Positions 8,346-11,555 of a stretch of DNA of 14,348 nt are shown here, piece after piece; positions within the stretch are counted from its first letter, which is position 1, and every line of letters starts with the position of its first letter. The position numbers and the translations under genes were made by a program. The notes below the pieces were generated by a model. That model did not search any database and was not told the origin of the DNA. It saw only the letters and a program-made list of their open reading frames with translations. The stretch covers positions 1 to 14,348 of the forward strand of contig MNUO01000027.1 of the NCBI GenBank assembly GCA_001871015.1. The letters run 5' to 3'. Origin of the DNA: Candidatus Desantisbacteria bacterium CG1_02_38_46. GTDB lineage: Bacteria > Desantisbacteria > UBA1551 > UBA1559.

Positions 8346-8818
8346 AAAGACCCAAAATCACAAATTCAGAACATTGCCAATAGCTGCGAGTCAAAAGTTA
8401 AGATTCTCTTTGAAGAAGTTGGGAATGTTCTTGTTATAGAAGTCCGTGAGGGCGAGGACAAACCTTATAAATGCTCTTCGGGATTCTATAGAAGAATGGG
8501 CCCAAATACCCAGAAATTGACCCGCAATGAGATAATTGACCTTTTTAAATCAGAAGGAAAGGTAAAATTCGACACCTTAGCAGAACCCAAATTTAAGCAC
8601 CCAAAAGATTTTGACAGGGAAAAATTATCAAGGTTTCTGGAACTCGCCGGCGTTTTAAAATCAATAAAAACCGATTGTTTGAGATTGTTTATAAAGTGAT
8701 GGATTTCGTGAAATTATACGCAAAGGTAGCATACAGATTCACAGGAAAACCACAAAGAGAAGAAATATATGAATATCCCTTTGAAGCAGTAAGAGAAGCG
8801 GTCATAAACTCGGGATAA
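8346..8818 (+). pseudogene. Decayed AlbA_2 / Schlafen-type (PF04326) gene
   Basis: The frame open from 8346 to the stop at 8697-8699 reads KVKILFEEVGNVLVIEVREG, then EDKPYKCSSGFYRRMGPNTQ and KLTRNEIIDLF. This is the classic AlbA_2 pattern (vIeV.eg..kPy.....yvR.G..t...t..Ei). There is no valid start, and the usual N-terminal part is missing. About base 8675 the homology jumps frame: LFEIVYKVMDFVKL continues as AYRFTGKPQREEIYEYPFEA and VREAVINS in the frame stopping at 8816-8818. The middle of the family is absent and the sequence breaks just before the expected HRDY-type motif. This is a remnant with at least a 5' loss, an internal deletion plus frameshift, and a 3' loss. Intact relatives are putative DNA-binding ATPase-like regulators. 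Confidence 0.85.
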
Positions 8819-8903
8819 CCATAGCGCATTTTGATTTTGATGTTTGAAAATTCTAAAGAAGGTTGGAAGCAAAAGTTTTTACTTAATTAAGAAAGGAGTT
8901 GTA

Positions 8904-11555
8904 ATGCCCAGAGGAAGACCCAAAAAGAAAAAAGATATAGAAGAAATTGTAAAGATTGCAGAAGAGGCAGCAGAAGAAGAAAAGAAGGGCGCTTCTGCAC
9001 AAACAGAGTTAAAACTAAACATTCCTGCTGCAGGCGGGGGCAGGAAGAAGAAATCAGCCGCTGAACAGACGGCAGCAGTCCCACCTGTGATTGCTACGCC
9101 GCCAGAAGAGAGAATTGTCCCCAGAGAAATTGAAGATGAAATGCAGGAATCATATATTGATTATGCAATGAGTGTAATTGTAGGCAGGGCACTGCCAGAT
9201 ATCCGCGATGGACTCAAACCTGTACATCGCCGGATTCTATTTGCAATGAATGAACTTGGTTGTGGTCCGGACAAACCCTACAAGAAGAGCGCCAGAATTG
9301 TCGGGGATACAATGGGCCGCTACCACCCCCACGGCGACATCGCCATTTACGATACTCTTGTGCGCATGGCTCAGGATTTCAGTCTGCGATATCCATTGAT
9401 TGATGGCCAGGGTAATTTCGGTTCTGTGGATGGGGATGCACCAGCAGCTATGCGATATACCGAAGTAAAACTGGACCCACTCGCCATAGAAATGCTTAAG
9501 GATATCGAGTCAGAAACCGTGGATTTCATCCAGAATTTTGACGGCACGCTGAAAGAACCAAAGATTCTTCCCTCTGTCCTTCCCAATCTTTTACTCAATG
9601 GTTCTTCAGGCATTGCTGTTGGGATGGCAACGAACATTCCCCCGCACAATCTGGGTGAACTCGTAAACGCAATTAATGGTGTGATTGATAATCCCAAAAT
9701 TGAAATCAAAGAACTTCTAAAATATATGCCAGGACCTGATTTTCCAACCGGGGGTATGATACTTGGCAGAGAGGGAATAAAATCGGCTTATGAAACAGGA
9801 AGGGGTTTGATTAAAATTCGCGCCAGAGCAGAAATTGAAGAATCAAAGTCCGGCAAGACGCAAATTATTATCCGCGAAATTCCCTACGAGGTAAACAAGG
9901 CAGAGCTACTTATAAAAATTGCAGACCTTGTCAGGGCAAAGCAGGTTGAGGGCATTGCTGGCCTGCGAGATGAATCAGACAGAGAAGGAATGCGTATAGT
10001 AATTGAAGTCAAGCGCGACGAGATTCCGGAGGTCATCCTGAACCAGCTCTACCACCACACCCAGATGCAGACAACTTTCGGCGTTATAATGCTTGCGCTT
10101 GTGGACGGAAAACCGCTGGTACTCAACATCAAGGAGATGATAGAATATTATATCAAACACCGCCAGGAAATTATAACCAGGCGCAGCCAGTTTGAGTTGA
10201 AGCAGGCAGAGGCAAGGGCGCACATCGTTGAAGGGTTGAAAATTGCGCTTGCCAACCTGGATGCAGTTATCAAAACCATAAGAAAATCCCGGGATGTGGA
10301 AGAGGCGCGCCAGGCATTAATGGATAATTTTGATTTGAGCAAGGAGCAGGCAACTGCAATACTGCAGATGCAGTTGCAGCGCCTTACACAACTGGAAAAA
10401 GAAAAACTTGATACTGAATATCTGGAGCTGCGCAAGAAGATTGCACGGTTCAAATATATTCTGGCAACACCGAAGGAAATTCTCAATATAATCAAGGAAG
10501 AACTTCAAGATTTGAAGAAGAAATATGGAGACGCTCGGCGCACAAAGATTATTGAAGGCGAGGTAGAATTTAAAATAGAGGACTTAATTGCTGAAGAGGA
10601 TATGGTTGTGACAATTTCTAATACCGGCTACATAAAACGCCTGCCGCTGGATACATACAGGAGACAGCGCCGCGGTGGGAGAGGTATAGTTGGAATGGAA
10701 ACAAAGGAAGAGGATTTTGTTGAAGACATTATAATCGCATCCACTCACGACTACATCCTTTTCTTTACAAATATTGGAAAGGTCTACTGGCTTAAAGTCC
10801 ATGAGATTCCTGTGGGTTCAAGACAGGCAAAAGGAAAAGCAATAGTTAACCTCCTTCGGCTTTCCCCGGATGAGAAAATTGCTGCGCACATACCAGTGCG
10901 GGAATTTGATAACAAACACTATTTAGTGATGGCAACCAGACAAGGGGTAATAAAGAAGACACTTCTTTCTGAATATTCCAGGCCCAGGCCAATGGGAATC
11001 ATCGGGTTGAAACTGCGAGAGGAAGATGAGTTAATAGAAGTGCGGCTTACTGATGGAAAACAGGAGATAATTTTAGGGACACACGACGGAAAGGCAATTC
11101 GCTTTGATGAAACAGAGGTGCGCGATGTGGGTAGAGCAGCTACAGGTGTAAGGGGCGCAAGACCTGGAAAGAAGGATTATATTATTGGAATGGTGACCAG
11201 TTCCAGTGAAGAGGATTCACTCCTGACCGTAACTGAGAATGGTTTTGGCAAGCGCACAGAAATTAAAGAATATCGTAAAACCCACCGTGGCAGCAAGGGT
11301 GTGATTAACATTAAAGCAAGCCAGAGAAACGGACCTGTTATTGCTATCCGTGCTGTTGAGGATAAAGACGAGTTAATGATAATTACTTCGTCAGGAATAG
11401 TTATAAGGTTTGCAGTAAAGGGACTGCGTGAAATCAGCAGGGTAACACAGGGTGTGAGATTGATGAGATTGGATGCGGGAGACAAAATTGTTGCTATTGC
11501 CCGTATCGTTCCGGAAGATGAAGAAGAGGAAGAATCCAAAACAGTAAAAAAGTAA
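8904..11555 (+). CDS. gyrA: DNA gyrase subunit A with an N-terminal AT-hook-like extension
   Basis: The 883-residue breakage-reunion subunit of gyrase. The family core starts near residue 70 ([20 protein letters not shown]). Winged-helix/[21 protein letters not shown] (134-150). Catalytic Tyr185 is in AAMRYTE. The coiled coil and [10 protein letters not shown] segment follow, then a six-blade-type C-terminal pinwheel opened by the GyrA box QRRGGRG (588-594), which marks gyrase rather than topoisomerase IV. An acidic tail (EDEEEEESK) ends the protein. The first ~70 residues are unusual: PRGRPKKKK (2-10) is an AT-hook-like core, followed by Lys/Glu/Ala-rich sequence and a second basic patch GGGRKKK. 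ATG 8904 has AAAGGAG upstream; an upstream in-frame TTG at 8844 lacks such a site. At the E. coli Ser83 position it has Ile146. Confidence 0.97.

Follow-up and report, generated by a model that had tools for sequence, protein, structure and literature searches.

A candidate AT-hook-like tail at the N-terminus of DNA gyrase subunit A in Candidatus Desantisbacteria

Background

What might some 70 residues, opening with a motif that resembles an AT-hook, be doing in front of a DNA gyrase A subunit? The question is raised by a stretch of 14,348 nucleotides (the window) from Candidatus Desantisbacteria bacterium CG1_02_38_46. Set point, processivity and site choice vary among bacterial gyrases, and this variation has been studied mostly via the C-terminal domain and its acidic tail. 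A naturally occurring gyrase whose N-terminal end bears a conserved hook-like tail would offer a clean, deletable element, through which the effect of in cis affinity for AT-rich DNA on gyrase location and processivity could be probed. The features discussed are collected in Table 1.

Table 1. Positions in the window of the genes and of the parts of the GyrA tail
Feature	Position	Strand	Remarks
dnaA	1329		
dnaN	3115		
recF	4246		
DciA gene	5393		
gyrB	6361		
Shine-Dalgarno AAGGAG	8893..8898	+	5 nt ahead of the gyrA ATG 8904
gyrA, 883 aa	8904..11555	+	70-aa extension and complete GyrA core
AT-hook-like tip, residues 1-10	8904..8933	+	kept as MPKGRPKKK in G001; matches HMGA consensus PRGRPKK; shuffles
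Predicted helix, residues 11-30	8934..8993	+	invariant core IEEIVKIA; AlphaFold; hydrophobic-moment permutation
IEEIVKIA helix core	8937-8960	+	5 synonymous, 0 nonsynonymous changes relative to G001
Linker, residues 31-70, predicted disordered, unconserved	8994..9113	+	pLDDT < 50; insertions in G001
GGGRKKK patch within linker	9033-9053	+	
GyrA core, first 20 residues	9114..9173	+	from residue 70 on, aligns with the N-terminal arm of GyrAs in the PDB

An otherwise ordinary gyrase A subunit

Judged by its sequence, the protein is a complete and otherwise ordinary DNA gyrase A subunit. A profile search finds the breakage-reunion domain (PF00521, 558.7 bits) with the catalytic Tyr185 in an invariant RYTE motif (R184-Y185-T186-E187), and six stretches of PF03989 make up the six-bladed wrapping domain, whose GyrA-box QRRGGRG lies at residues 588-594. 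GyrAs of other phyla have the same core, catalytic tyrosine, GyrA-box and six blades and are 50-60% identical to it, whereas the 70-residue N-terminal tail with its AT-hook-like tip belongs to the window protein. The nearest named GyrA, that of NPL-UPA2 (L043), is 61% identical and has no tail. AlphaFold2 was run on 40 GyrAs (mean pLDDT 80), and beyond the tail the model of the window protein is that of an ordinary GyrA.

The extension is translated and its beginning is conserved

The 70 codons at 8904-9113 are in frame with the core, and the ATG that opens them has its own Shine-Dalgarno sequence, so the N-terminal extension of about 70 residues described in an initial annotation of the window is real. 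Could the start nevertheless have been mis-called, with an untranslated leader ahead of a true start near residue 62-70? GyrAs do mostly begin 4-25 residues ahead of the core, and a GTG is present 9 codons before it. This GTG, like the upstream in-frame TTG at 8844, lacks a Shine-Dalgarno sequence, however, and the extension contains no ATG, against the strong AAGGAG before ATG 8904. On these signals no internal start is better than ATG 8904.

Further evidence comes from the comparison genome G001, the sole other member of the phylum in our set, which belongs to the same order and a different family. Its GyrA (L031, from 15976 downwards) starts after AGGAG and has 84 residues ahead of the core LPREIEDEM; here too the sole alternative start is a GTG without Shine-Dalgarno sequence. 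The first 19 or so residues are kept in both genomes, as MP[R/K]GRPKKK followed by IEEIVKIA, and the remainder has diverged. Over the 16 codons of tip and helix there are 7 synonymous changes and 1 nonsynonymous change between the two species (pS 0.69, pN 0.026), to be compared with pS 0.90 and pN 0.043 over the first 60 codons of the core. In the 14 codons that follow tip and helix, the amino acid is altered in 9. The low pN relative to pS indicates that the start of the tail is protein-coding, under purifying selection and as constrained as the core, as judged on 16 codons in two species; the test is small because only two tail-bearing sequences entered it. With the start signals and these codon changes pointing the same way, we rejected the mis-called start, which we regard as hardly credible. 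A start of translation near residue 70, named in the initial annotation as the result that would overturn its reading, is disfavoured by the Shine-Dalgarno sequence and the coding-type codon changes alike, and its other concern, that relatives might begin at the core, does not apply to G001, the nearest relative, which has the same extension.

The linker between helix and core, about 40-65 residues long, is freely variable between the two genomes. The patch GGGRKKK, to which the initial annotation had drawn attention as a second basic element, is present in the window but is not conserved in G001. In G001 the linker includes a dispersed repeat, CCGAACAAGTTCGGGCACCC, twice, read there as the peptide NKFGHPE. 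The repeat is near-palindromic and is found at 13 places in G001 (contigs C61, C73, C111 and C115) with at most 2 mismatches, 3 of them exact; there is no copy in the window's genome, G000. Such insertions are as would be expected of a tolerant spacer.

How widespread is the tail?

We inspected N-termini from about 150 GyrA loci, drawn from whole-genome relatives, named species and further long-frame genes. The number of residues ahead of the core is typically 4-25, and [KR]GRP at the N-terminus occurs in 0 of these about 150 other GyrAs. In a survey of 386 genomes, G000 and G001 alone align over the tip from residue 1 among the matches listed, and no third tail-bearing case was found in the 386 genomes, at least 80 named loci and 40 further long-frame GyrAs. 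The phylum and the order are represented by two genomes only, the scan of named genomes leaves out near relatives, and more tail cases may exist. The comparison with relatives has thus a divided outcome: the nearest one has the tail, but more distant GyrAs do begin at the core, and therefore the tail is a lineage-specific trait. A search with the tail finds GyrA alone in G000 and G001, with no copy elsewhere in either.

The earlier remark that in an ordinary GyrA only a few residues precede the core applies to nearly all of the about 150 GyrAs, with one exception. Methanosarcina GyrAs (L071, L089) have acidic N-terminal extensions of 88-97 residues. These have no similarity to the window tail, and hence long N-terminal tails of GyrA arose more than once. 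In the open-access literature we found no report of a gyrase with an AT-hook, and on N-terminal extensions of GyrA only a 5-residue case from Helicobacter and a review naming that case.

Is the tip an AT-hook?

The consensus of HMGA hooks is TPKRPRGRPKK, with GRP as the usual core and RGR entering the minor groove (PMC11354804). Single short hooks of 5-11 residues around PRGRP bind weakly without their flanks (PMC11354804). The GRP core is present in both proteins (PRGRPKKKK in the window, PKGRPKKK in G001). RGR is found in the window and at the C-terminus of G001 GyrA, which ends in ...KPAGKKRGRPPKKK and contains there a further canonical-looking hook, KKRGRPPKKK; at the N-terminus of G001 the corresponding residues are KGR. 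The window GyrA has no hook at its own C-terminus. The tip has a charge of +6 over ten residues, and when the extension is shuffled 200,000 times with its composition preserved, [KR]GRP[KR][KR] arises only 39 times. The tip is also predicted to be disordered when on its own, as AT-hooks are: in the AlphaFold2 model pLDDT is below 50 at residues 1-11, as it is in the linker (residues 29-71).

Not everything fits. Flanking basic residues occur on the C-side alone, the N-side being Met-Pro at the start of the chain. The Pfam family AT_hook (PF02178) is not reported for either N-terminus, and the C-terminal hook of G001 reaches 10.4 bits where the cut-off is 17.4. The initial annotation had called the opening motif AT-hook-like, and this wording we keep: PRGRPKK matches the HMGA consensus and the tip is conserved, but the missing upstream flank, the unreached Pfam threshold and the KGR of G001 argue for "like". 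With the HMGA AT-hook the tip has in common the PRGRPKK core and the disordered context; it differs in being present once per chain in the window protein, in having no upstream basic residue and in being fused to a topoisomerase. Myxococcus CarD and WhiB7 likewise have an AT-hook on a disordered tail of a bacterial protein. They are transcription regulators, however, CarD with four hooks, whereas the window protein is a housekeeping topoisomerase.

In both genomes, coding sites with R-G-R-P-x-K are found in GyrA, in a probable transposase fragment (G000, L129/L182) and in a few short spurious frames. The idea that the hook motif is common in these genomes was rejected, its counts being no higher than those of a reversed-pattern control.

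If GRP is incidental, the tail may be a general basic disordered segment that adds non-specific electrostatic affinity for DNA, with no preference for the minor groove or AT-rich sequence. The strongly basic tip would suit this, as would the lysine that replaces the first arginine of RGR in G001. Basic disordered segments can substitute for the HMGA-like domain of CarD without functional loss (PMC4374960), and some other GyrAs (L009, L018) have basic C-terminal tails that are free of hooks. Yet GRPKKK is identical letter for letter in the two genomes while the charged linker around it has diverged, and a second RGRP hook, of canonical form, has evolved in G001. We consider a purely non-specific tail unlikely on balance; even if it were so, it would still be a conserved, lineage-specific gyrase tail.

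The helix behind the tip

AlphaFold2 predicts a helix at residues 9-30 with low confidence (pLDDT about 55-60). Its amphipathicity is modest (hydrophobic-moment permutation p 0.02-0.05). Neither this conserved helix nor the C-terminal hook of G001 is mentioned in the initial annotation. Assignment of the tail to a known family was attempted and rejected, as there is no Pfam match for it and its PDB matches are designed helical repeats, found by composition.

It could be suggested that IEEIVKIA is the working part of the tail, binding GyrB, another gyrase, or a partner in replication or in the nucleoid, and that the tip is secondary. The helix is amphipathic and the only ordered part predicted within the tail, and its core is invariant in amino acids with synonymous codon changes only (Table 1). 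The tip, however, is as conserved as the helix, there is no known partner, and no other protein of G000 or G001 has the tail. We would rate such a docking tail as improbable, more so than the non-specific one.

What the tail might do

The reading that we prefer, with a probability of roughly 0.55, is that of a lineage-specific bipartite tail in which an AT-hook-like tip and an amphipathic helix would add AT-biased minor-groove affinity to gyrase. A flexible linker would join tip and helix to the N-terminal arm of GyrA, which lies against the TOPRIM domain of GyrB. The arm is the pivot of TOPRIM insertion (PMC6821735). The tail would leave from the arm close to the DNA gate, and the two tails of an A2B2 holoenzyme may hold AT-rich DNA flanking the gate, or DNA crossings. 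Holding DNA in this way might raise residence time and processivity and bias gyrase to AT-rich DNA. The helix would most likely dock on gyrase or on a partner, though this is a guess.

If correct, the tail would be a built-in, in cis version of AT-binding architectural proteins that act in trans. Human TOP2A is stimulated by HMGA2, a protein that binds at DNA crossings, and no fewer than two hooks are needed for this; the role of GapR in bacteria is comparable (PMC7349988). In HMGA2 with TOP2A, and in GapR with gyrase or topo IV, AT-biased DNA binding is likewise coupled to type II topoisomerase activity, but there the activities reside on separate proteins, whereas the window GyrA is one chain. 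In E. coli and B. subtilis, GyrA has an acidic C-terminal tail that is also non-conserved and disordered and could tune DNA binding and supercoiling. The window tail, by contrast, is N-terminal and basic at its tip; being basic, it is expected to add affinity and not to compete with DNA.

A bolder version can be put forward: that the whole phylum built an AT-hook into its gyrase, which would recognize AT-rich or crossed DNA within the same chain, the helix coupling hook to gate, with two hooks per holoenzyme and four in G001. We regard this as possible but doubtful, somewhat less so than the non-specific tail.

G000 and G001 each have a single gene for GyrA and a single one for GyrB, and neither ParC nor ParE was found in them (genomes 88% and 93% complete). 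Gyrase appears to be their sole type IIA topoisomerase, and therefore may also have to decatenate. Extra DNA capture by the tail could help decatenation.

Genomic context

The suggestion that the tail anchors gyrase at the nearby origin is unsupported. Nothing ties the tail to oriC about 6 kb upstream; a diffusible protein acts in trans, and so distance on the chromosome is uninformative. In the likely oriC itself (2711-2990, between dnaA and dnaN) G+C is low, about 26-28%, exact DnaA boxes occur several times, and a tract of the trinucleotides TAC/TAT/TTA is reminiscent of DnaA-trios. There are two more exact DnaA boxes at 1290-1310, upstream of dnaA.

The gap between gyrB and gyrA holds, at 8496-8818, a pair of short frames, apparently what is left of a single broken gene. 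There is no Pfam match for these frames; we presume that the gene was perhaps an AlbA_2/Schlafen-type ATPase.

An intein that carries a LAGLIDADG endonuclease (PF14890, PF14528) splits the GyrA of G001 (L031, 11795-15976, minus strand); the intein sits between IVGE and CMGKYHPHGD and adjoins the quinolone-resistance region. The GyrA frames of two other genomes (G011 and G159), about 1256 aa long, seem to be interrupted at or near the same site.
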